A stretch of 64,000 nt of DNA from an uncultured Bacteroidales bacterium (GCA_946405575.1 CAMJHP010000001.1:62001-126000); one strand, 5' to 3'. Shown: positions 14,623 to 56,393, counted from the first letter of the stretch. The notes: generated by a model not told the origin, from the letters alone. Numbers and translations are program-made.

Positions 14623-14649
14623 AAAAAGGCGGCTTAGCCGCCTTTTTTC
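14622..14649. terminator. bidirectional intrinsic terminator
   Basis: aaaaaaggcggcttagccgccttttttc between convergent genes, overlapping both stop codons. Confidence 0.9.
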
Positions 14650-16783
14650 ATTCTACTATTGTCATCTCGTCAATCAAATGTCCCGCTCCTGCGAATTTGT
14701 CGATGATGAAGAGCACATAGCGGATGTCGACGCTGATGTTGCGGCAGATGTCAGGGTCGTAGATGAGGTCGCTCATCGTGCCTTCCCAACAACGGTCGAA
14801 GTTGAGGCCGAGGAGCTGGCCTTCGGCGTTTAAAATGGGGCTGCCTGAGTTGCCTCCCGTGGTGTGTACGCTGGCAGTGAAAGCCACATGCATGGTGCCG
14901 TCCTTGTCGGCATAACGGCCGTAGTCCTTATTATTATACAGCTGCTTCAGGCGCGGTTCCACCACATAGTCGTAGATGTCGGGGTTCTCCTTCTGCATAA
15001 TGCCTTCGAGCGTAGTAAAGTGGCGGTAGGTCTTGCCGTCCTGAGGCTTGAAACCTTCCACTTTACCGTAAGTGACACGCAAAGTGAAGTTGGCATCGGG
15101 GAAGAACCGTTTCTCGGGCTGCATCTCCATCTGGCCTTTCATGTAGATGCGGCGCAGACGGTCGTTGTCTTTGGTGATGCTTGAAATGTGGTCGTATACA
15201 TTGTCGCGATAAAAACCGATCAAGCTCTGATAGACCTTCAGCGCGGGGTCGTTGGCCAATTTCTTGGCATCCTTCAACTTGAAATTGTCCAGCAATGCAT
15301 TCACTTTAGCCTCATCAGTAAACATCGACTTGTCGAAGAGCTTGCCAACAAACTCGTTCACATCCTTGATGTCGTTGAGGAAAGCAGGACGGAAGTCAGC
15401 GGGCTGGGCCTTCAGGTATTCGCTGAGTGCCATGACAGCCACCTCACGGTCGATGGGCTCATAATAGTCCTTGAAGAAAGTGGCAGTGGTACCTTTCAAC
15501 TGGTTCAACATACGGTCGATGTCTTCCTGTGGGGTGACTTTAGTTACCTCAGAAAGTCGGGCGAAACGTCCTGCAAAACTGACCAACTCGATGCGCATTC
15601 CTGCCTCGACCATATAGGTGTAGGCCAGTTCATAAGGTTCCAATTCCTTATAGTTTTTCTTGAAATACTTCAGCAAGTCGATGTACATATAACGGTTGCG
15701 AGCACCCAAGGCCCATTCCTGGAAGTCCTTCTCAAAGGCTTGTTTCTTCTCCACGCCACGGAAGTGGTTGATGCCTTCGGTCACGCCCATCCATTTCTTC
15801 CAACCGTTGCCAAGGCCCGCATGTTTGGAGGCATATTGGATACGCACTTTGGGGTCTTGTTCCTGATATTTGTTGTAGATGTCAAGCACCTTACCACGCA
15901 GGTCAACGGTGATGGGGTCGATAAGATTGGCTTCCTGGTCCACAGCAACGGAAGGCAAATATTCGTTAGTGCGAGCAGGATAGCCGAACACGAAGGCGAA
16001 GTCGCCTTCCTCGGCACCTTTCAAAGAAATGTCCAAGTGTTTGGCAGGCTTGTAAGGCACGTTGTCCTTGTCGTAAACAGCTGGATGGCCGTCTTTATCA
16101 GCGTAGACACGGAAGATGCTGAAGTCGCCGGTGTGACGGGGCCAGACCCAGTTGTCGGTGTCGCCGCCAAACTTGCCGATGTTGCTCGGCGGACAACCCA
16201 CAAGGCGCACGTCGGTGTAAACCTCGTTGAGTAGCAAGTAATACTCGTTGCCCAAGAAGAACGGCTTGATGCTGACCTTATAGGTGGTTTCTTTCTCAAC
16301 TTGGGCGATGAGCTTTTTTATGTTCTCATCAGTTTTGGCCTGACGTTCGTTTTCAGGCATATCGGGTGTGATGCCAAGCAACACTTTTTCAGTCACGTCG
16401 CGCATCTCGCGGAGGAAGGTGACGCTGAGGCCAGGGCAAGGCAGTTCCTCGCCACGGTTCATTGCCCAAAAGCCGTTGGTGAGATAGTCGTGCTCCACCG
16501 AGCTGTGCTTTTGGATATAGTCGTAGCCACAATGGTGGTTGGTGAGCAACAGGCCATAGTCGCTGACGATTTCGCCGGTGCAGCCGCCGCCAAAGAGCAC
16601 AATGGCATCTTTCAAACTGCTGTGGTTGATGCTGTAGATGTCTTCAGCAGTGATTTTCATACCCATTTCCTGCATTTCTTTCTCGTTGTATTGCAGTAAC
16701 ATGGGAATCCACATACCTTCGCCTGCGAAAAGCAAGGCTGGGAAAAGGACCAAGATGGTCAACAGAAATGAATAACGTTTCAT
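14648..16783 (-). CDS. dpp11: S46 family dipeptidyl peptidase, DPP11-like (acidic P1 specificity predicted)
   Basis: catalytic TGGNSGSPILNAEGQLLGLNFDR: the residue 18 after catalytic Ser is Arg (Arg673-equivalent of DPP11); LTNHHCGYDYIQ. Confidence 0.88.
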   Translation of the reverse strand: MKRYSFLLTILVLFPALLFAGEGMWIPMLLQYNEKEMQEMGMKITAEDIYSINHSSLKDAIVLFGGGCTGEIVSDYGLLLTNHHCGYDYIQKHSSVEHDYLTNGFWAMNRGEELPCPGLSVTFLREMRDVTEKVLLGITPDMPENERQAKTDENIKKLIAQVEKETTYKVSIKPFFLGNEYYLLLNEVYTDVRLVGCPPSNIGKFGGDTDNWVWPRHTGDFSIFRVYADKDGHPAVYDKDNVPYKPAKHLDISLKGAEEGDFAFVFGYPARTNEYLPSVAVDQEANLIDPITVDLRGKVLDIYNKYQEQDPKVRIQYASKHAGLGNGWKKWMGVTEGINHFRGVEKKQAFEKDFQEWALGARNRYMYIDLLKYFKKNYKELEPYELAYTYMVEAGMRIELVSFAGRFARLSEVTKVTPQEDIDRMLNQLKGTTATFFKDYYEPIDREVAVMALSEYLKAQPADFRPAFLNDIKDVNEFVGKLFDKSMFTDEAKVNALLDNFKLKDAKKLANDPALKVYQSLIGFYRDNVYDHISSITKDNDRLRRIYMKGQMEMQPEKRFFPDANFTLRVTYGKVEGFKPQDGKTYRHFTTLEGIMQKENPDIYDYVVEPRLKQLYNNKDYGRYADKDGTMHVAFTASVHTTGGNSGSPILNAEGQLLGLNFDRCWEGTMSDLIYDPDICRNISVDIRYVLFIIDKFAGAGHLIDEMTIVE

Positions 16784-18669: not shown

Positions 18670-18677
18670 TATTTTTG
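18670..18677 (+). promoter_or_regulatory. -7 box TATTTTTG upstream of the SLT/SGNH/MBOAT operon
   Basis: TATTTTTGCC ~75 bp upstream of the first ATG. Confidence 0.5.
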
Positions 18678-18751: not shown

Positions 18752-19429
18752 ATGAGATTCAAGGTATTATTCTTTTTTTGGTCGTGCTTTTTTTGTCTTG
18801 CGGCAAACAATTGCTGTGTGTCGTCGGGCAAAGATAGTATTGCTAAAGAATTGAAAAGCATGGAAAAAGACATTCCTTTGCCTTATCATTTAACCTTGGA
18901 CAAAACGGTGAAACAGTTGGCCAACAAAAGCCTTCCAAAAACTTTCAAAATGTATGAGGCTTTTATTGATTCTGCCTTGCTACAACGAAATATGCCTTTG
19001 GAAATCAAATATTTGCCTTATGCTCTCAGCGGAATGAAAACCAACTATTCGAAAGGTGACCGCTGCGGCTATTGGGCTTTGCCCTCCTTAGTGGGGATGC
19101 ATTATGGCCTTCTTATTGATAGAAACGAAGATGAGAGGCTTCAAATGGAAGCGTCAACTCTGGCCGCTTTGGATTATCTTAACGATTTGAACAAGAAATA
19201 CAACAACTGGTGGTACAGCATTTTGGCATACGCCAACAGCCCTACCTCGCTGAGCCATACGCTGATACATTATGGCAACGAGCCAGCACTTTGGGATTTC
19301 TATGAACATCGGCTGTTGTCTAATACTCAAGTCATTGCCGACTTCATTGCCTGCATTTATCTCGGCCATCAAAATCGTCTCAACTTTACCACCTCTGATA
19401 ATAAAAAAACAAAAATTGACAATCAATAA
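18752..19429 (+). CDS. lytic transglycosylase (SLT)-like exported protein, predicted catalytically inactive
   Basis: MltD-like NMPLEIKYLPYALSGM...GYWALPSLVGMHYGLLIDRNEDERLQMEASTLAALDYLNDLNKKYNNWWYSILAYANSP; position of catalytic Glu is Leu. Confidence 0.7.
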   Translation: MRFKVLFFFWSCFFCLAANNCCVSSGKDSIAKELKSMEKDIPLPYHLTLDKTVKQLANKSLPKTFKMYEAFIDSALLQRNMPLEIKYLPYALSGMKTNYSKGDRCGYWALPSLVGMHYGLLIDRNEDERLQMEASTLAALDYLNDLNKKYNNWWYSILAYANSPTSLSHTLIHYGNEPALWDFYEHRLLSNTQVIADFIACIYLGHQNRLNFTTSDNKKTKIDNQ

Positions 19430-19432
19430 ACG

Positions 19433-20950
19433 ATGAAATCGATACGCACTTTGGTATTTATTTTTTCAGTGATACTCCTATTAGGGGTAGCCTGGTATTT
19501 TTTCCCCGCCGAAGGTCTTGCCATTGGCAAACACTCCTTACGTTTTCCGTCATATGCCGAAGACGTTGCTCCTGCCCAACAGGAAGTGGATGTGGATGCC
19601 GTTATTGACAAGGTGAACAAGAGTTTTGAGATGACTTGCTCTGATAATCTTTTAGACAGCATGCGCTTCTTCCGCTATTACTTGAAAGAAAACCCGAACC
19701 GTATTTACCTTCCCAACGATGACTATACTTTCTTCGACACTTTGTTCTGTCAATTGGAACATGCCAACGAAGAAAACAAGATCTACCGCATTATGTATTA
19801 TGGCGATTCGCAGATTGAGATGGACCGTATTTCTTCTGTGCTGAGACAAAAGTTGCAGGAATTATTTGGAGGATCGGGGCCAAATATGATACCTGCCATC
19901 CAACCTGTGGCTACCATCTCAGTAACCCAACATGCCTCCAATTTGACACGTTATATGGTGTATGGTGATGCTGCCCGTGCTTCGCACAATCGCTATGGAG
20001 TGATGTCACAGTTCGGTCAAGTGATAGGTAACGGCAGCATTTCGTTTTCGCGAACCAACCATTCACAGGCGTTTGCAAAAGCCAAAGAGATCTCCACGGT
20101 TTCGGTGCTGTTGGGCAAAAACAGTAAGAATTTCAAAGCTACGCTAAAATGTGACACCATATCACCCGAAACCAAAGTGCTGCCTGCCAACGACAGTGTA
20201 TCGCTCATCACTTGGATTTTGCCCACTAATGTCAAACACGGTGTCATCAGTTTCAAGGGCAACGCCGAAATCTATGCCGTGCTGTTGGATGGTGACACGG
20301 GTGTTGCCGTCGACAATGTGGCCTTGCGTGGCTGCTCAGGCACCATCTTCACTCGCCTCAATGAGGTCACCTTACGACAGTCATTCGATTTGCTTAACAC
20401 CCGGCTCATCATTATGCAATTTGGCGGCAACCGTATGGCAGGTATTACCTCTTCAAAGAATATTACTCCCTATATTGCCGAACTAGAGAAGCAAATCCAA
20501 TATATGAAGCAGGTTGCGCCTCAAGCCACTTTGCTCTTCATTGGTCCCGCTGACATGGGTAAAAGTTACAATGGTAAAATGGGTACTTTGAAAGGTCTCC
20601 CAGAGTTGAACGACTCACTACGAGCCATGTCTCTACGCAACGATATGGCCTATTGGGATATGTTCAACGTGATGGGTGGTGAAGGCTCGATGGCACAATG
20701 GGTAAAGCACAAACCTCCTATGGCTGGCCCAGATTATGTGCATTTCACATTCAAAGGCGCTCAAGAAATAGGCTCTGATTTGGCGAAATCTTTTACCACC
20801 TATTACGATTTTTACAAATTGCGTCAACACATGCCAAGTGAGAAGGTCATCGAGTTCATCAATCTTGACCAAAAAGAAGACTCAATCCGTACTTCCGGCC
20901 GAGTCAAAATGCCTTTTTATCAACCCCAGTATATTTCAATGAATCAATGA
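19433..20950 (+). CDS. SGNH/GDSL hydrolase family protein (O-acetylation associated)
   Basis: N-terminal TM; YYGDSQIEMDR (block I), DYVHFTFKGAQEIG (block V). Confidence 0.8.
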   Translation: MKSIRTLVFIFSVILLLGVAWYFFPAEGLAIGKHSLRFPSYAEDVAPAQQEVDVDAVIDKVNKSFEMTCSDNLLDSMRFFRYYLKENPNRIYLPNDDYTFFDTLFCQLEHANEENKIYRIMYYGDSQIEMDRISSVLRQKLQELFGGSGPNMIPAIQPVATISVTQHASNLTRYMVYGDAARASHNRYGVMSQFGQVIGNGSISFSRTNHSQAFAKAKEISTVSVLLGKNSKNFKATLKCDTISPETKVLPANDSVSLITWILPTNVKHGVISFKGNAEIYAVLLDGDTGVAVDNVALRGCSGTIFTRLNEVTLRQSFDLLNTRLIIMQFGGNRMAGITSSKNITPYIAELEKQIQYMKQVAPQATLLFIGPADMGKSYNGKMGTLKGLPELNDSLRAMSLRNDMAYWDMFNVMGGEGSMAQWVKHKPPMAGPDYVHFTFKGAQEIGSDLAKSFTTYYDFYKLRQHMPSEKVIEFINLDQKEDSIRTSGRVKMPFYQPQYISMNQ

Positions 20951-22218
20951 AAAAGTGGTTGGTTTTCATAGGATTGCTGCTGTCCTATGGGCAGCTTTTC
21001 ACACAAACTTTGCCATGGGTTAAATCTGTGCCCGATTACAAGTTTGCCCATTTTGGACACAACACCATCCTTTATCCTGGCGATAGTTTGGCCATAGAAC
21101 GCTTTTTCCGAAAAATGGATTCCGTTGTTTTCTTTGGCGAGGGCAACGTGAGCATCATACACATTGGTGGTTCACATGTGCAAGCGGGTGTATTTACCCA
21201 ACAATTCCGTGACAACCTATTGAGTATCAGCCCAGATTTGATTGGGGGACAATTTTTTGTATTTCCATTTTCAACAGGGGGCACCAACAACCCCACCCAT
21301 TACATTGTCAGGTCAACAGGAACCTGGACCTACTGCCGCAATGCGGTTCGTAGAGAAACAGACAAACGTATGGGACTGGCTGGTGCGGCCATCACTACCA
21401 ATGACCCTACAGCTACAGTAAGCATCATAACGAGGGAGAAATACCCCAACGACCTCACTCCCGACTTTGACTTTAACAAAGTGACCATTATCGGATTCTC
21501 TGAGACAGAAAACGTGATTCCTGTAATCAGCTATAACAGCAACACCCTCCACGGAAAGTACGACGAATGGCAGTCGACATACATGTTCTCCCTACCCGAT
21601 TTTACTGACTCCATCTGCATTAGATTCGATTCTGTTCCAGGTGAGTTTACCTTGACAGGTATTCTACTCGAAAACGATATGCCTGGCATCAGCGTCCATG
21701 GTGTAGGAGTCAATGGTGCCAGTGTCCCCTCCTATCTCCGTTGCGATGACTTCGAACGCGACCTCAACCTCATCCGCCCTGACCTTATCATCTTTGGCAT
21801 CGGCATCAATGATGCATCAGAAAAAGACTTTGAAAAAAATAACTTCAAGAAAAACTATGACGAACTGATTAAGGTCATCAAACGCGTCAATCCCGATTGT
21901 GCCCTGCTCTTTATTACCAACAATGACAGTTACAAAAAAGTGAAAGTCAAGCGAAAAACCCGATATGAAGTCAATCCCAACGGAAAAATTGTGGAAGACG
22001 CTTTTATGGAAATGGGAAAGAAATACAATGCTGCCGTTTGGAATCAATTCGACATCATGGGTGGCCTGAAATCCATGCAGGATTGGGAGAAAATTGGTTT
22101 GGCCAAGAAAGACAAGGTACATTTCACCAATGAGGGTTACAAACTTTTGGGCGACTTGTTTTACAACGCTTTGATTACTAGATATATTGAACACATCCAA
22201 CTGAACGCCAAACAATAA
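20947..22218 (+). CDS. SGNH/GDSL hydrolase family protein (O-acetylation associated)
   Basis: signal peptide; IHIGGSHVQAGVF, IIFGIGINDASEKDF, KDKVHFTNEGYKLLGDLF; overlaps upstream stop. Confidence 0.8.
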   Translation: MKKWLVFIGLLLSYGQLFTQTLPWVKSVPDYKFAHFGHNTILYPGDSLAIERFFRKMDSVVFFGEGNVSIIHIGGSHVQAGVFTQQFRDNLLSISPDLIGGQFFVFPFSTGGTNNPTHYIVRSTGTWTYCRNAVRRETDKRMGLAGAAITTNDPTATVSIITREKYPNDLTPDFDFNKVTIIGFSETENVIPVISYNSNTLHGKYDEWQSTYMFSLPDFTDSICIRFDSVPGEFTLTGILLENDMPGISVHGVGVNGASVPSYLRCDDFERDLNLIRPDLIIFGIGINDASEKDFEKNNFKKNYDELIKVIKRVNPDCALLFITNNDSYKKVKVKRKTRYEVNPNGKIVEDAFMEMGKKYNAAVWNQFDIMGGLKSMQDWEKIGLAKKDKVHFTNEGYKLLGDLFYNALITRYIEHIQLNAKQ

Positions 22219-22221
22219 AAG

Positions 22222-24087
22222 ATGCCACAGGGAACCGAAATAGCTTTAGACTTCCTCACCCGAGTCTTTTCGTTCGACAAGGCACATCCCTTGTTGTTCA
22301 CCCAGTTTTATTTCTGGGCATTTTTTGCCATTGTATTCGCCTTCTTCTGTCTGTTCAAAAACAAGTGCCTGCTGCGCAATACCTTCCTGTTCTTTGTAAG
22401 CCTTTTCTTCTATTACAAGACCAGCGGACTCTTCACTTTAATTCTAGTTTTCATTACCTTATATAATTTCTTCGCGGGCAAATGGATGCATACGCGAAAG
22501 AAGCATAGCAGCCGTAATTTTGTGCTGGCACTCAGTGTGATTGTCAACCTTTCAACGCTATGCTACTTCAAATATGCCTATTTTCTCACTGACGTACTTA
22601 ACAATCTGACAGGCTTTGAATTCCGCGTGTTCGATATTTTCTCATGGGTGGGCAACCAAATTACAGGCGACAACCGATTCAGTGTGGATACCATCCTGCT
22701 CCCAGTGGGTATCTCTTTCTACACCTTCCAGGCTATCAGCTATATTATGGATGTGTATCGCAAACGCATCGAACCTGTGCGGAATATCTTTGATTTCGGA
22801 TTTTATGTAAGTTTTTTCCCACAATTGGTTGCAGGCCCCATCGTGAGAGCCAACGAGTTCATTCCCCAGCTGCACAAGAAATACTTCCTCAGCCGTAATC
22901 AGTTTGGCATTGCCGTGTTCTGGATTATGAATGGCTTGGTGAAGAAAATCGTGCTCAGTGACTATATCGCGGTCAACTTCATCGACCGTGTGTTTGAACA
23001 GCCTTTGCTTTACACTGGCTTTGAAAATCTGACAGCCTTGTTTGGATATTCATTGCAAGTTTATGCCGACTTCTCTGGTTACACCGACATTGCCATCGGT
23101 GTGGCTATGCTGATGGGATTTTACTTGCCTAAAAACTTCAATTCGCCTTACAAAGCAAAAAGCCCGGGCGAGTTTTGGAACCGTTGGCATATGTCCCTCT
23201 CCCGCTGGCTGAAAGACTACCTATACATTCCCTTAGGAGGCAATCGCAACGCCACTTTCGGCTCATTTTGCATTATCATCGTGATTTCCGCAATTGCTGT
23301 GTTTCTATCTGGTAGTTGGTGGGTTGGCTTGGGCGTAGGTGTTGTGGCCTTGATTTTGGCTCTAGTGGCCATTTTCATCCCCGAAAAACGGATAAAAATC
23401 ACCTCCGATATCAACCGAATGGACACTATGCTCTTAGGTGGTTTATGGCATGGTGCCTCGTGGAACTTTATGATATGGGGTGGACTGAACGGTATCGGCC
23501 TGATATTTTACAGGTTCTGGAAAGATTGGAGCATTTATGGTCGCACCTTGTTTATTATGGCGGTCACCTTCTTGTTGCGAGTGCTATGCGTTTTCGTACC
23601 ACAGCCCGTTTTCAATGTGCTGTTTGTGTGGTGTATGATTATCCTAGTCGGCAACATAATTCGAATGCTTTACAACCTGTTTGGAGGCAAAAAGGCTTGG
23701 CAGTGGCTGCAAGACATTTGGGCCATCTTCCAAACTTTCACTTTCATCACCTTCACGCGATTGTTCTTCCGTAGCGGCTCCAACCTCAACCCTGCCGAAG
23801 CTAATGAAACCGCCTGGAATACCGCCAAAAATATGGTCAACCAAATGGGCAGCCACTGGGACTGGAGCAAGATTCCGACCATTATTGTCCACTATCAAAA
23901 TGTGTTCATCCTCATTTTGATAGGCTTGATTATTCACTGGCTACCTGAAAATTTCAAACGACGTTATCGCATTTGGTTCGCCAAGATGCCGTTACCACTG
24001 ATGATTGTAGTCTGCGCCCTTATCGTGTTTGTCATCTATCAATTCATCACTGCCGACTTGCAAACATTCATCTATTTCCAATTCTGA
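22222..24087 (+). CDS. MBOAT family O-acyltransferase
   Basis: multi-TM; LPVGISFYTFQAISYIMDVYR, FFPQLVAGPIVRA, LGGLWHGASWNFMIWGGLNG with conserved His. Confidence 0.95.
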   Translation: MPQGTEIALDFLTRVFSFDKAHPLLFTQFYFWAFFAIVFAFFCLFKNKCLLRNTFLFFVSLFFYYKTSGLFTLILVFITLYNFFAGKWMHTRKKHSSRNFVLALSVIVNLSTLCYFKYAYFLTDVLNNLTGFEFRVFDIFSWVGNQITGDNRFSVDTILLPVGISFYTFQAISYIMDVYRKRIEPVRNIFDFGFYVSFFPQLVAGPIVRANEFIPQLHKKYFLSRNQFGIAVFWIMNGLVKKIVLSDYIAVNFIDRVFEQPLLYTGFENLTALFGYSLQVYADFSGYTDIAIGVAMLMGFYLPKNFNSPYKAKSPGEFWNRWHMSLSRWLKDYLYIPLGGNRNATFGSFCIIIVISAIAVFLSGSWWVGLGVGVVALILALVAIFIPEKRIKITSDINRMDTMLLGGLWHGASWNFMIWGGLNGIGLIFYRFWKDWSIYGRTLFIMAVTFLLRVLCVFVPQPVFNVLFVWCMIILVGNIIRMLYNLFGGKKAWQWLQDIWAIFQTFTFITFTRLFFRSGSNLNPAEANETAWNTAKNMVNQMGSHWDWSKIPTIIVHYQNVFILILIGLIIHWLPENFKRRYRIWFAKMPLPLMIVVCALIVFVIYQFITADLQTFIYFQF

Positions 24088-45944: not shown

Positions 45945-47480
45945 TCATTCCCTCAAGACCCAATCAATATCCTTATTGATAGCCTCGTCAATGGTTATAT
46001 TTGACAAGGCGGCTTTTTCCCTAATGGAATTCAGCCATTCTTCGTTCTCAAGCATTTGCCTTCGGATACGATCACGCTCTGGATTATTGATTTCCATAAG
46101 TACCTTGTCGATACGACTGTTGCGGCATTCGGGAACAGCAGCTCCATTGAACTCATCAAAATAAAGCCCTGGCTGACTCATCAACAAGTATCGCGCATTG
46201 TCTTCAATGGACTGCTCCACATCCAGTCCGTTGGCAATGGCATTTTGCTCGATACTGCCATACCATTCCGGTGTGTTCCTGATATCCTCCTTGATTTTCT
46301 CGACCTTATTTTCCACAATGCCTTCATCGAAATAAAAAGCGCAAAGCGCATTTGTCAAAAAATTACGGTTCAAATCATATAAGTTGTTCGCAGAATAAAG
46401 CAGCATTACTACATCTGTCGATAACAATTCCCTTAACAAATCCACTTCTTTTACATTTGAATGCAAAGGATCGTCAAAAACCGTGTTGTTGTAATACCAA
46501 AAATGATGGGTGTCAAACATTTGATCCAAAGGTAGGCTGTACTGCCATTCCCAATAATACGAATCTCCTACCACTAGCCACTTTGGCTTCATAGCCGTTG
46601 TGTCATTATCAACCATAACATCAACATAGTAGTTTTCATCCGTTTCAATAGGCCACATCAGATTCATCACCCCCTCAAGATCAGCGTCAGGATTACGCGT
46701 TTTGGCTAAATAGGGTACACTAAAAGACAAGTTATACATATTATGTCCGCTCAACGCCTCCATATAGCGAACCAAAGTGTCGGCTGCATAACAAGCCGAT
46801 TGTATGCTCCAATGAAAAGAAGACTTTAGGTATAGCGGATAAGAAACTGTATCTTTTATTTGCATATAATAATTGGCGAGATTCAAATAATTAATACCCA
46901 AAGAGTCAAACAACGGAGTAAAGAATTCCATTGCCTGTACTCCTGAAGGACGGTTGTATTTCCTTTTTTTTTCCAAAAGATACTCTTCGCAGACTTTGTC
47001 TTTACAAGGCGGTAGGCATACGAAGAAAGAAACACCTTGCTCCTTTAGAACCTTCTGAAGTTGGTACAACATAATGGCGGAAGCCCTCATTCGACGAACC
47101 ACTTCCTCATTGTGCTCGCCATAATCATAAACCAATTGGTGGTCGTGGTTTCTGACCATAGCCTCATCGAAAAGCCATCTTTCCTTACCCACATATATCG
47201 ATTTGTTCTGAGCCTTTCGGAACAACGACCACGACATTTGGTTGTAGCAACGGACAAGCAGCTCACGAAAACCGATGTTCTCCGACAAATACTGCTCTTC
47301 CTGCTTCTGAAACGTCCCGTTCATCCAATTCTTGAAGTTTAACTGAGGCTGCTCAACTTTTTCCGTCACACCATTCAGCGGCTTGAAATCGAACAATTTG
47401 GCATATTGCTGCACGGCAGGAAAAGCCAGTAGCATCACAGAAAGGACGAAAAGCACAGTATAAGACACCTTTTGTTTCAT
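45945..47480 (-). CDS. AlgX/AlgJ (DHHW)-like SGNH-fold exported protein with two C-terminal ~40-aa modules
   Basis: LSENIGFRELLVRCYNQ, SIYVGKERWLFDE, SSFHWSIQSACYAADTL, WLVVGDSYYWEW; two IRxxxEWxxSIxxxA units. Confidence 0.78.
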   Translation of the reverse strand: MKQKVSYTVLFVLSVMLLAFPAVQQYAKLFDFKPLNGVTEKVEQPQLNFKNWMNGTFQKQEEQYLSENIGFRELLVRCYNQMSWSLFRKAQNKSIYVGKERWLFDEAMVRNHDHQLVYDYGEHNEEVVRRMRASAIMLYQLQKVLKEQGVSFFVCLPPCKDKVCEEYLLEKKRKYNRPSGVQAMEFFTPLFDSLGINYLNLANYYMQIKDTVSYPLYLKSSFHWSIQSACYAADTLVRYMEALSGHNMYNLSFSVPYLAKTRNPDADLEGVMNLMWPIETDENYYVDVMVDNDTTAMKPKWLVVGDSYYWEWQYSLPLDQMFDTHHFWYYNNTVFDDPLHSNVKEVDLLRELLSTDVVMLLYSANNLYDLNRNFLTNALCAFYFDEGIVENKVEKIKEDIRNTPEWYGSIEQNAIANGLDVEQSIEDNARYLLMSQPGLYFDEFNGAAVPECRNSRIDKVLMEINNPERDRIRRQMLENEEWLNSIREKAALSNITIDEAINKDIDWVLRE

Positions 47481-47549
47481 AATTCCAGCATCTGAACTGC
47501 AAAAATACGTTTTTTTCAATTTCATTTCATATTTGCCCCTCAAAACCGA

Positions 47550-50048
47550 CTATCGTTTTGCCGTGACCCTAATACGAAGATTGTCATATAACATCGTAGT
47601 CTTGTCATAGTTGCGCAAATATGCTTTCATAACCTTCCCTTGGCTTTCACCAGGCACCGCAATGGAGATATGGGCTTGAAAGCGCTCCCTTCTCCCCGTA
47701 TTCAAGGATGTTTCTTCCTCAGAATTCAGCAATACTGACGCATAATAGTCGCCTAGTTCCACCACCAGCAAAGGTAGCTCCCTCAAAGTGTCGAGTCCAT
47801 GAAGATCGAAGGCAATGTCGAGATACACGTCTTTGTAATTCATATTCAGTTTCAAATCCTGAAGCAAAGGCCCGAACATCTTGGTGGTGTCAACAAAAGC
47901 CGAATGATTATCACCTATTTTCTTGACATAATATTTGTAATACTTGTCGTATCGGGATTCAAAATCAACGTCAAGACTTCTCAAGACCTCAAACTCTTTA
48001 TTATTGATATTCAAATGATTATGTAACACAGCAAATTGGCTGATGATGGTGTAATCTGCCAATTCCGACTTCAACTGACTAAGACGGTTTTCATCCTGAA
48101 CCTGATGCGTCAATAATTCCTCATCCAATGAGAAAACTCGATTAATAGATAGCAAAAACTGATTATCGACATACTCTACCACATCACGGTTATTAAGCAT
48201 GAAAGCCTGCTTTCTTGTATTCCGGAAAGTCCTCATAGTATCCAAGGACCTACCCATCCAGTGACACTCTGAGTTGATATGGTAGTCGTAGTTCGCTTGA
48301 AGATATGCATTCAAAGTCGGCGCGATATCAAGATGAGAGACCACAGCCTTCATCGACCGTGGCTGCTTGACCATCGGAGAAAACAATAAAAGTGGAACAT
48401 GGTATTTGCTCAATGTTCCAGTGAAGTTCAAAAGCCCCATACGGTGGTCTCCCGTGAGAATGAATAAGGTATTACCATATTCAGGCAGGGTTTTATAGTA
48501 ACCCAAAAGCTCACGAATACAATCGTCCATATAGCGGAAACACGCATAGACATTCGCATTCTTCACGATGATGTCCCGTTCCCGTTCCGACACCTCAGGG
48601 TGCTGTGACACTATTTCCATAACAAGGCGCTCATAGGCTTCCACCTCCTGAAAAAGGAATGGCTCGTGGGTAGTGAGTGTCATAAGGATATCGGCTCTGG
48701 GTCGAACATAAAGTTCCTTTTGCTTGTTCCCAATCATTTGACGAACCGACTCCCTATCATCTAGTCCCCAACGATGGGCCTCATTCAACAATTGATAGTT
48801 AGTGCTGTCAATATTACGCGCATCGGGAAGACAAATCTCATCCACTTTATTAGCCTCCAAAAATACATCATATCGGCCATACGAAGGAATACAGCCATAA
48901 TAATACGATATCGTATAGCCGTTGTCTTTCAAGTCACGCAACAAAGAATGATGGTCGGGCATAGGCCTGCTGGAAGTACAGAAACCATATTTCCCATAGG
49001 GTGCGGAGACAAAGATTGAAGGCAAGACCCCAAAAGTCCGTTCAGCAGTTGACAGACAGTTTTCCCAATAAAGACCTTGTTGTTTCAGGCTGTCGATGAA
49101 CGGAGTGAAGGATATCGCTGGGGTTTCGACACCAGTAAGATGCTGGCCAAAACCTTCGATGATGATGAAAACTAAGTTGGGAGGCAAGCTGTCACTGGTT
49201 TGCTCAAGCAAAGTGCCCAACACATCAGGATCGTCTGCCTTACGATAGAAAGGATATTCCGGGTCGAGAAAAACAAACTCAGGGTGCAAGGCTTGATAAC
49301 GCTTGGCAGCCTCAATTACGGACTGGCTCACCTCCTCATCAAGCATAGTGAAGCTATTTCGTGTTTCTCGAAGATAATCCGTGATTTTGATATAAGCATA
49401 CGAAGGCTGATTGACGGCCAAACAGAAATCTTGGTGTTCTCTATAATAACGCTCTTCGCGAATCAGCTTCTTATATGGTATGCTGCAACTCCATACCAAA
49501 GCGGTTAGAAGCAGCAACACAGAAAGGCGGAATCCTATCGTCATCTTCTTCCACAGCAAACTCAGTGTTACCAATACCGCAATGGTGGAGACAAACCATA
49601 GGAATGGCGTGGCAGTGACCGAAGCCGAAGAAGTCGCTGCACCTTTTACCTCTTCGGGCGTATACACCAAAACCACATGGTCCAAAGGCATAGAAAGGTT
49701 ACAATAATACTCTGTCAACAAAGCCGACACTATTCCGTAGAGGATAATCAATCCAAAATAAACCCTTTGGGTCGTCTTTGGAAAAAAGAAATGAAACAGC
49801 AGATAAGGAAGCGCAAGAAAGGCTATAATACGGCACAATAACGTCAAGTCGAAAAGCGAACCGCCCAAAATTCCCCAAAAATGGGAAGCATCGATGCCGA
49901 GACGAATATGAACTTCAGCGATAAAAAAGAGGCGGAGCACCATCATAAAAAACAACAGAAGAAGGTTCTGTCGCAACCAAGAACAAATGCCCTCACGCAT
50001 TGGCTGAGGGAAGACAGACTCTATTGCACCCCCTTTCATCTCCTTCAT
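47550..50048 (-). CDS. LTA synthase family (phosphoglycerol transferase-like) membrane sulfatase-fold protein
   Basis: N-terminal TM segments; FIIIEGFGQHLTG, SFTPFIDSLKQQGLYWENCLSTAERTFGVLPSIF, LFILTGDHRMG; start not certain. Confidence 0.88.
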   Translation of the reverse strand: MKEMKGGAIESVFPQPMREGICSWLRQNLLLLFFMMVLRLFFIAEVHIRLGIDASHFWGILGGSLFDLTLLCRIIAFLALPYLLFHFFFPKTTQRVYFGLIILYGIVSALLTEYYCNLSMPLDHVVLVYTPEEVKGAATSSASVTATPFLWFVSTIAVLVTLSLLWKKMTIGFRLSVLLLLTALVWSCSIPYKKLIREERYYREHQDFCLAVNQPSYAYIKITDYLRETRNSFTMLDEEVSQSVIEAAKRYQALHPEFVFLDPEYPFYRKADDPDVLGTLLEQTSDSLPPNLVFIIIEGFGQHLTGVETPAISFTPFIDSLKQQGLYWENCLSTAERTFGVLPSIFVSAPYGKYGFCTSSRPMPDHHSLLRDLKDNGYTISYYYGCIPSYGRYDVFLEANKVDEICLPDARNIDSTNYQLLNEAHRWGLDDRESVRQMIGNKQKELYVRPRADILMTLTTHEPFLFQEVEAYERLVMEIVSQHPEVSERERDIIVKNANVYACFRYMDDCIRELLGYYKTLPEYGNTLFILTGDHRMGLLNFTGTLSKYHVPLLLFSPMVKQPRSMKAVVSHLDIAPTLNAYLQANYDYHINSECHWMGRSLDTMRTFRNTRKQAFMLNNRDVVEYVDNQFLLSINRVFSLDEELLTHQVQDENRLSQLKSELADYTIISQFAVLHNHLNINNKEFEVLRSLDVDFESRYDKYYKYYVKKIGDNHSAFVDTTKMFGPLLQDLKLNMNYKDVYLDIAFDLHGLDTLRELPLLVVELGDYYASVLLNSEEETSLNTGRRERFQAHISIAVPGESQGKVMKAYLRNYDKTTMLYDNLRIRVTAKR

Positions 50049-50121
50049 AATCCTACAGACTTGATAAAACACTTCATCAGAAACTCCGTATCACGCTCCA
50101 TCCAACTTTAATTTCCGAATA

Positions 50122-54176: not shown

Positions 54177-56393
54177 TTAGATTTTCTCTTCCTCTTCAAC
54201 GCGCAACGGCTTCGGCTCGCTCTTGCGGATGTCGAGCTCGTCAATCAAATTGGTAGCACCGGCGTACTTGTCGATGATGAAGAGCACGTAGCGGACATCC
54301 ACGTTGATGGTGCGTTGGAGTTTAGGCTCAAAGTTGACATCACCGCTCATGGCTTCCCAGTTGCCATCGAAGGCCAGACCGATGAGTTCGCCCTTGCCAT
54401 TCATGATGGGGCTGCCGGAATTGCCACCAGTGATGTCGTTGGTCGACAGGAAGCACACGACGAGTTCACCGTTGTCATCGGCATAGGCTCCAAAGTCTTT
54501 CTTCTCGATGAGTTCAATGAGGTGCTTAGGAGCATCAAACTCGTAATCGCCAGGGACATACTTTTCAAGGATGCCGTTGGCGGTGCAGATGTAATCGTAG
54601 TGTACGGCATCGGCAGGCATATAATCCTGAACAGAACCGTAGCTCATTCTCATCGTCGAGTTGGCATCGGGATAGAGGCTCTTGCCAGGTTGAGTGGCAG
54701 CATAATACTCACGCAGACCCTTCACAAAGATATGGTCGTTCTCGCTTACGGCTTGCATCGCTGAGCGATACTCACCCATATGATTCATGATGACTTCCAT
54801 CATCGAGGTGTTCATGATGTAGGCATAGTCCTTACCGATTTTCTTCGGATTGGGCTTGGCCAAGAAAGCCTTGATACTCTCAGGCGTGGCGAAGATGGAG
54901 TTGGTATAGACATCCTCAGCAAAGGCATCAATGTTGCCCTTGAACTTCTTGTCGATAATCGAGTAGATTTCAGGCAGTTCCTCGCCCTTGAAGGCATTCT
55001 TGTAGGTCTTCAGCATCTCAGCGAAGGTCTTCTTCTCCACTTGCGGGTCGGTCTCGGCGAAGAGTTCGTCGACATTCATACCTTGGAGCAGCATAAGAGC
55101 CATTTCCTGGGCTTCCTTGTCCTTGCTTTGGTAGGCCTCGTAATAGGAAGCAAACTGGGCAGCAATGCCTGCGGCACCCACATTGGACACGAAGTTGGGA
55201 TAATAGATATACTTGGCCACGTTGCCCAGGTTCTTATAAGCAGCTTTCAAGTTGGGGAGGGCGTTCTTGTATTCGGTCTTGTTGTTTTTGTTCACCCAAT
55301 TGGTGAAGTCTTTTTCCATAGCGACCTTGGTTTCGCTCACCTTGTTCTTGCGGAGCATCTTGCACTGGCCGATGAAGTTCTTCCAAGTGTTGGCGAGACC
55401 TGCGTGATTGTCGGCATACATCAGGTTGATGTGGTCATCGACCTTCATATATTCTTCCATCACTTCGAGTTGCTTGCCAAAGATGTCGATGATGGTGGGA
55501 TAGAAAGTGTCAACATTGTAGTCGATACCATAGCTCGACATATAACGTTCGGTGCTGCCCGGGAAACCCCAAATCATGGTGAAGTCATCTTTCTGCACAC
55601 CATCGAGGCTGATGGGCAGATGATGCTTGGGAGTCAACGGCACATTGTCCTTGCTGTAGGCGGCAGGATTGCCGTCCTTATCGGCATAGACGCGGAAGAT
55701 TGAGAAGTCGCCTGTGTGACGGGGCCACATCCAGTTGTCGGTGTCGCCACCAAACTTACCAATCGAAGAGTTGGCCACGCCTACGAGACGCACATCGGGG
55801 AACACTTGATAGACAAACATGTAGTACTCGTTGCCCTCAAAGAAGCCCTTGATAACTGGGTTGTACTTGCCGTCTTCTGAAGCCGCAGTTTCCAATTCCT
55901 TGATTTTCTTGCGGATAGCAGACTGTTGGTCTTGATAATCCATATCATCAGTGACCACGCCGAGGATGTCCTTGGTCACATCTTCCATACGGACGAGGAA
56001 GCTGGCTGTCATTTCGGGAGCGGGCAGTTCTTCGCCATAGTTCTTGGCCCAAAAGCCGTCGCGGAGATAGTCATGTTGGTCGGAGCTGAGTTTTTGGATA
56101 GCACCATAACCGCAGTGGTGGTTGGTGAAGAGCAGGCCGTGCTCGCTCACAATCTCACCTGTGCAGAAAAAGCCACGAGGCATAGCATCGCTACCAAGAC
56201 CCACGATAGCGTCTTTCAGACTGCTGTGGTTGATGCTGTAAAGCTCTTCAGGGGTCAGTTGCAGCCCCATCTTCTGCATGTCAACATAGTTCAGGCGCTC
56301 GACGAACATCGGGAGCCACATGCCTTCATCGGCATACACGCGACCCACCGAAACCATGATGGCCATCGCGATGATTCCTAATACTTTCTTCAT
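54177..56393 (-). CDS. dpp7: S46 family dipeptidyl peptidase, DPP7-like (hydrophobic P1 specificity predicted)
   Basis: ITGGNSGSPIMNGKGELIGLAFDGNWEAMSGDVNFEP: Gly 18 residues after catalytic Ser (Gly673-equivalent of DPP7); LFTNHHCGYGAIQ. Confidence 0.9.
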   Translation of the reverse strand: MKKVLGIIAMAIMVSVGRVYADEGMWLPMFVERLNYVDMQKMGLQLTPEELYSINHSSLKDAIVGLGSDAMPRGFFCTGEIVSEHGLLFTNHHCGYGAIQKLSSDQHDYLRDGFWAKNYGEELPAPEMTASFLVRMEDVTKDILGVVTDDMDYQDQQSAIRKKIKELETAASEDGKYNPVIKGFFEGNEYYMFVYQVFPDVRLVGVANSSIGKFGGDTDNWMWPRHTGDFSIFRVYADKDGNPAAYSKDNVPLTPKHHLPISLDGVQKDDFTMIWGFPGSTERYMSSYGIDYNVDTFYPTIIDIFGKQLEVMEEYMKVDDHINLMYADNHAGLANTWKNFIGQCKMLRKNKVSETKVAMEKDFTNWVNKNNKTEYKNALPNLKAAYKNLGNVAKYIYYPNFVSNVGAAGIAAQFASYYEAYQSKDKEAQEMALMLLQGMNVDELFAETDPQVEKKTFAEMLKTYKNAFKGEELPEIYSIIDKKFKGNIDAFAEDVYTNSIFATPESIKAFLAKPNPKKIGKDYAYIMNTSMMEVIMNHMGEYRSAMQAVSENDHIFVKGLREYYAATQPGKSLYPDANSTMRMSYGSVQDYMPADAVHYDYICTANGILEKYVPGDYEFDAPKHLIELIEKKDFGAYADDNGELVVCFLSTNDITGGNSGSPIMNGKGELIGLAFDGNWEAMSGDVNFEPKLQRTINVDVRYVLFIIDKYAGATNLIDELDIRKSEPKPLRVEEEEKI

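Follow-up and report, generated by a model that had tools for sequence, protein, structure and literature searches.

A predicted dead lytic transglycosylase heads a probable peptidoglycan O-acetylation operon in Bacteroidales

Introduction

Why would a gene related to lytic transglycosylases stand at the head of an operon for acetylating a glycan? Lytic transglycosylases require the free C6 hydroxyl of MurNAc, which O-acetylation blocks (PMC1199599). How peptidoglycan O-acetylation is aimed is itself an open question in the field: a 2025 study of PatA and PatB, in which PatB has no wall-binding domain, left unanswered whether the target is nascent or crosslinked wall (PMC12148441). In gut Bacteroidales, O-acetylation bears on lysozyme resistance and on the release of wall fragments.

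We analyzed such a locus in a 64,000-nucleotide stretch of DNA from an uncultured Bacteroidales bacterium, which we call the window. (The source genome assembly is 74% complete, with 3.09 Mb in 114 contigs.) We argue that the locus is probably a Bacteroidales operon for the O-acetylation and de-O-acetylation of peptidoglycan (ape1b-ape1c-pat), with a gene for a dedicated pseudo-lytic transglycosylase (pseudo-LT) at its head.

Layout of the operon

Positions 18752-24087 hold four open reading frames, all on the plus strand, with junctions of +3, -4, and +3 bp:

18670..18677, plus strand: possible operon promoter, TATTTTTG, which fits the Bacteroidetes -7 element (pattern match only)
18752..19429, plus strand: predicted pseudo-lytic transglycosylase with an MltD-like SLT fold (225 amino acids; N-terminal export signal)
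19433..20950, plus strand: SGNH1, in the Ape1b position (505 amino acids; N-terminal membrane anchor; Ape1-type SGNH fold)
20947..22218, plus strand: SGNH2, in the Ape1c position (423 amino acids; cleavable-type signal peptide; Ape1-type)
22222..24087, plus strand: PatA-type MBOAT acetyltransferase (621 amino acids)
23248..23421, plus strand: insert in the MBOAT, with two hydrophobic stretches, directly before the catalytic His (alignment and hydropathy)

A preliminary description of this DNA had the coordinates and junctions exactly right. Its account of the products (an exported SLT-like protein, two SGNH proteins, and an MBOAT) is borne out by the reading frames and by Pfam, with E-values for the four genes in order of 2.9e-06 (SLT), 1.1e-07 and 4.1e-11 (both Lipase_GDSL_2), and 4.6e-18 (MBOAT). 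The flanking genes, both on the minus strand, encode a MATE transporter (divergent) and a type I methionyl aminopeptidase (convergent). The four-gene order is not due to chance, since it is found again within the window's genus and in further Bacteroidales families.

The consensus for the Bacteroidetes -7 element is TAnnTTTG. The first start codon is about 75 bp downstream of the putative element TATTTTTG, which is weak evidence for a promoter; we did not see a clear -33 element with it. Scans of the operon for sigma-70 promoters and terminators gave no informative signal.

The last three genes match a known O-acetylation cluster

In content and order, the last three genes match the ape1b-ape1c-pat (OAP) cluster that Weadge, Pfeffer, and Clarke described in 2005 in Bacteroides and Porphyromonas, which belong to the same phylum (PMC1199599; we compared gene order). 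So the core three-gene machinery has been known since 2005. Both B. fragilis and B. thetaiotaomicron have ape1b-ape1c-pat, and their peptidoglycan is O-acetylated, with measured levels of 69% and 27%, respectively (PMC1199599). The window differs in its first gene: we found no lytic transglycosylase gene reported for Bacteroides or Porphyromonas in that study. The SGNH1-SGNH2-MBOAT triad is widespread: of 294 genomes in the order, 161 match SGNH1 at E <= 1e-40, and of 395 genomes across the phylum, 77 match it at E <= 1e-20. The triad is also present in Fibrobacter-labelled contigs, at about 35% identity (L076, L101, L105, L106, and L109).

In the MBOAT, His410 (codon 23449-23451) is at the catalytic His position, and the C-terminus is FIYFQF, with Tyr618 at codon 24073-24075. 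The pattern FxYxxF ends 156 of 160 complete relatives. In C. jejuni PatA, acetyl-Tyr forms within an FxYxxF motif, and the N. gonorrhoeae PatA-type motif FIYANF gives acetyl to PatB (PMC12148441). Judged by sequence, the window's FIYFQF is the acyl-tyrosine shuttle motif of PatA. A profile search of solved structures matched the MBOAT to DltB. The MBOAT insert (about 50 residues) is absent from some relatives (L021, L026), and MBOAT lengths group near 505, 555, and 620 amino acids.

The MBOAT's His and FIYFQF, together with Ape1-type SGNH proteins (see below), support glycan O-acetylation, as had been proposed in the preliminary description. Since the last three genes match the OAP cluster of Bacteroides and Porphyromonas, peptidoglycan is by far the likeliest substrate. 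Two kinds of linkage also tie these genes to peptidoglycan: in about 20 loci the cluster is preceded by an MltD with LysM, and in 8 loci (L028, L119, L134-L137, L200, and L208) SGNH2 carries one or two fused LysM domains at its C-terminus. The earlier choice of peptidoglycan is thus upheld by both the cluster match and the MltD and LysM linkage. The acceptor could instead be a different glycan of the envelope (a capsule or an exopolysaccharide, for example): MBOAT/SGNH pairs act on many glycans, and this genome encodes at least three other MBOATs. We consider this most improbable given the Ape1-type folds, the linkage to MltD, the LysM fusions, and the O-acetylated peptidoglycan measured in Bacteroides that share this gene order.

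SGNH1 and SGNH2 probably divide the labor

Both SGNH proteins have the expected residues (Ser126, Gly300, Asn333, Asp434, and His437 in SGNH1; Ser76, Gly257, Asn288, Asp389, and His392 in SGNH2). The Ser and Gly blocks are about 180 residues apart in both proteins. (The Ape1c of 2005 was without a segment of about 100 residues after motif I.) In profile searches of solved structures, the top match was Ape1 from N. meningitidis (3.3e-33 for SGNH1 and 6.4e-42 for SGNH2), and Ape1 from C. jejuni was second for both; PatB was not among the PDB matches of SGNH1. The structural model of SGNH1 (pLDDT 85.7) covers nearly the full length of both Ape1 structures, with E-values of 1e-23 to 4e-21 and TM-scores to the target of 0.73-0.81, and the next fold match is at 2e-09.

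The two proteins differ in topology. SGNH1 has a helix at residues 3-23 (hydropathy 2.4) with no obvious cleavage site, which is an N-terminal anchor before the SGNH domain. SGNH2 has a cleavable-type signal, which ends in A-Q in many relatives. Among SGNH1+MBOAT loci with enough downstream DNA, SGNH2 is present in 127 of 143 and absent from 16; SGNH1 was the search anchor, so this count covers SGNH1+MBOAT loci only. The known system pairs PatA with PatB, which is modelled as anchored; its Ape1 is a periplasmic protein that binds to the wall. We propose that SGNH1 is the PatB-like acetyltransferase, because it is anchored and is alone with the MBOAT in some loci, and that SGNH2 is the O-acetylpeptidoglycan esterase, because it is exported and, in 8 loci, fused to LysM. 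A weak point is that SGNH1 is similar, in both sequence and fold, to the esterase Ape1 and not to a known transferase.

That similarity, and the names Ape1b and Ape1c given in 2005 (PMC1199599), would fit a scheme in which both SGNH proteins are esterases and the MBOAT's transferase partner is encoded elsewhere. But the cluster holds no further SGNH gene, SGNH1 and the MBOAT occur without SGNH2 in those 16 loci, and SGNH1 has an anchor like PatB's. Names can also mislead: Ape2 was first called an esterase and later shown to be PatB (PMC6174289). We think that two esterases are quite unlikely.

The preliminary description instead had both SGNH proteins acting in series in transfer, like AlgJ and AlgX. 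Two intact SGNH active sites do adjoin a single MBOAT, and alginate acetylation by AlgI/AlgJ/AlgX likewise uses one MBOAT and two SGNH proteins. However, the window's SGNH proteins are of another type, and alginate is a different glycan. The Ape1-type similarity of both proteins, the export of SGNH2 without an anchor, its fusion to LysM in relatives, and the loci with a single SGNH gene all argue against two transfer steps, which we consider very unlikely; the topology suggests one anchored transferase and one exported esterase.

On our preferred assignment of a transferase and an esterase, the system resembles PatA/PatB/Ape1 of Neisseria and Campylobacter in the MBOAT's His and C-terminal acyl-Tyr motif and in having one anchored and one exported SGNH protein. 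It differs in that pat comes first there, in that both SGNH proteins of the window are Ape1-like, and in that Bacteroidales add a pseudo-LT or a LysM partner.

The first gene encodes a predicted dead MltD

The first protein's best NCBIfam model is MltD (3e-12, far under the equivalog cut-off), and phmmer matches it to MltD (8rhe). In a Foldseek search with the predicted structure (pLDDT 87.1), the top six matches are all P. aeruginosa MltD (E = 3e-05 to 2e-04). So, in fold and sequence family, it is like P. aeruginosa MltD (PDB 8rhe, 8rhf, and 8rhi). Unlike MltD, it has lost the catalytic Glu of the ES motif (Leu92, codon 19025-19027) as well as the Gln (Ala109, codon 19076-19078) and the Asn (Ala161, codon 19232-19234). 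From these replacements we predict a catalytically dead lytic transglycosylase, in agreement with the preliminary description's "pseudo-enzyme". A separate MltD in the same genome (L210) has the Glu, Gln, and Asn intact and two LysM domains.

Relatives of the first protein keep LysM, whereas the window's copy (225 amino acids) has lost the linker and LysM through a shortened end. In two other lineages (L016 and L018/L039), LysM is kept and half of the SLT domain is lost. Neither half is indispensable, since each has been lost somewhere.

The Glu-less copies form a single clade

Elsewhere, in many families, SGNH1 is preceded by the gene for a full MltD, with the Glu, Gln, and Asn and usually with two LysM domains. 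Such an intact MltD is mostly part of a parB-DUF5683-mltD locus. (The cluster stands directly behind these chromosome-partitioning genes in many Bacteroidales families, as in L026, L151, and L154.) Three loci have tandem pairs of mltD (L022, L151, and L201), in which the copy on the par side is intact and the copy on the cluster side lacks the Glu.

In a tree of 61 SLT domains, the Glu-less copies form one side of one branch (support 98/95), so that a single change between intact and Glu-less is needed. The split still holds (98/97) once the motif columns and the longest branches are taken out. We therefore reject many independent losses of the Glu as the default reading; the Glu-less copies have a single-clade origin. 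Several of the Glu-less sequences are on long branches, which leaves a small chance of attraction among them. The pseudo-LT probably descends by duplication from the mltD of the parB-DUF5683-mltD locus, after which the par locus would have retained an active copy and the other copy would have kept a binding role only.

What is new here is the dead MltD paralogue of single origin tied to the OAP cluster, the par-mltD-OAP arrangement, and the SGNH2-LysM fusions. We did not find these in the literature that we searched, nor any relevant paper that treats inactive lytic transglycosylases or that links parB with mltD in Bacteroidetes. (Most subscription journals were outside the search.)

The pseudo-LT is conserved but accessory

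Is the pseudo-LT still in use? For a close, unsaturated pair of loci (L030/L059), dN/dS is 0.18 for the first gene versus 0.16, 0.10, and 0.11 for the other three. Pairs that include the window have dN/dS of 0.08 to 0.23, with dS saturated. The window's copy has no excess of private changes over its relatives (22:18, 22:25, and 20:15). The pseudo-LT is under purifying selection, and we reject a decaying pseudogene on dN/dS, relative rate, and the intact modelled fold. Within the genus, matches to the pseudo-LT above 140 bits are found only in genomes that have the cluster or, in one case (G017), a fragment of its MBOAT. In the eight genomes of the genus without the cluster, the match is at most 41 bits.

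By the preliminary description's own yardstick, which is whether an SLT-like gene adjoins most such clusters, the outcome is mixed. We surveyed how often an SLT gene precedes SGNH1 in four sets of loci, which overlap slightly and were taken from best matches. It does so in 9 of the 14 near relatives, 21 of the 72 named loci, 30 of the 59 Bacteroidales loci (in 20 of these the nearest copy has the Glu), and 2 of the 39 loci phylum-wide. So the order holds in most loci of the window's genus and, among the best-scoring Bacteroidales loci, in about half, but as a universal feature of Bacteroidetes it is rejected. The pseudo-LT is an accessory that is missing beside most clusters of the phylum. Many triads stand without it, even in the window's genus (L011, L013, L014, and L150), so the acetylation chemistry does not need it.

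These absences, the window copy's loss of LysM, and the truncation of other copies raise the idea that the SLT-like gene is a dispensable leftover beside a working OAP cluster, of which only the last three genes matter. We think that this is unlikely. The pseudo-LT is one old clade, which several families have kept at the cluster, and the purifying selection, the lack of a rate increase in the window's copy, and the confident, intact fold also argue against it.

A possible role for the pseudo-LT

In the mechanism that we propose, the MBOAT would take acetyl groups from acetyl-CoA through His410 and load them onto the C-terminal Tyr618. The anchored SGNH1 would accept the acetyl group on Ser126 and pass it to the C6 hydroxyl of MurNAc (the role of PatB), and the exported SGNH2 would take acetyl groups off where needed (the role of Ape1). 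The pseudo-LT would most likely bind the glycan, an SGNH partner, or both, and place or stimulate that partner, as LtgA does for Ape1.

In the LtgA-Ape1 complex of N. meningitidis, LtgA stimulates Ape1 on a substrate that LtgA itself cannot use (PMC7083599). There, a lytic transglycosylase is the partner of a peptidoglycan O-acetylesterase. However, LtgA is active, whereas the window's lytic transglycosylase is predicted to be dead and is co-encoded with acetylation genes. An ancestral MltD that adjoined acetylation genes would gain from coupling of this kind. By analogy, the pseudo-LT may be a scaffold or guide for the acetylation enzymes. Contact with a partner or the glycan is a likelier use for the window's copy than targeting by LysM, because the conserved part is the SLT-like domain. 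The preliminary description's targeting subunit is only plausible; the window's copy is without the LysM of its relatives.

Our fullest account is tentative, and we would put it a little short of an even chance: a family of dead MltD proteins, which arose as a duplicate of the par-locus mltD and lost the Glu once, would now be a dedicated O-acetylation accessory that positions or stimulates SGNH enzymes on the glycan. The pseudo-LT would then be a natural case of a lytic transglycosylase retained for a purpose other than cutting. The same acetylation chemistry is repeatedly linked to LysM domains or to a lytic transglycosylase, whether intact or dead, and this linkage offers a genetic handle on how O-acetylation is targeted.

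Other genes in the window

The window also encodes an AlgX-type SGNH-domain protein (45945-47543, minus strand), which adjoins a gene with a sulfatase domain (47550-50072); within the window, no MBOAT gene lies beside it. Two S46-family peptidases are encoded at 14648-16783 and 54177-56393.
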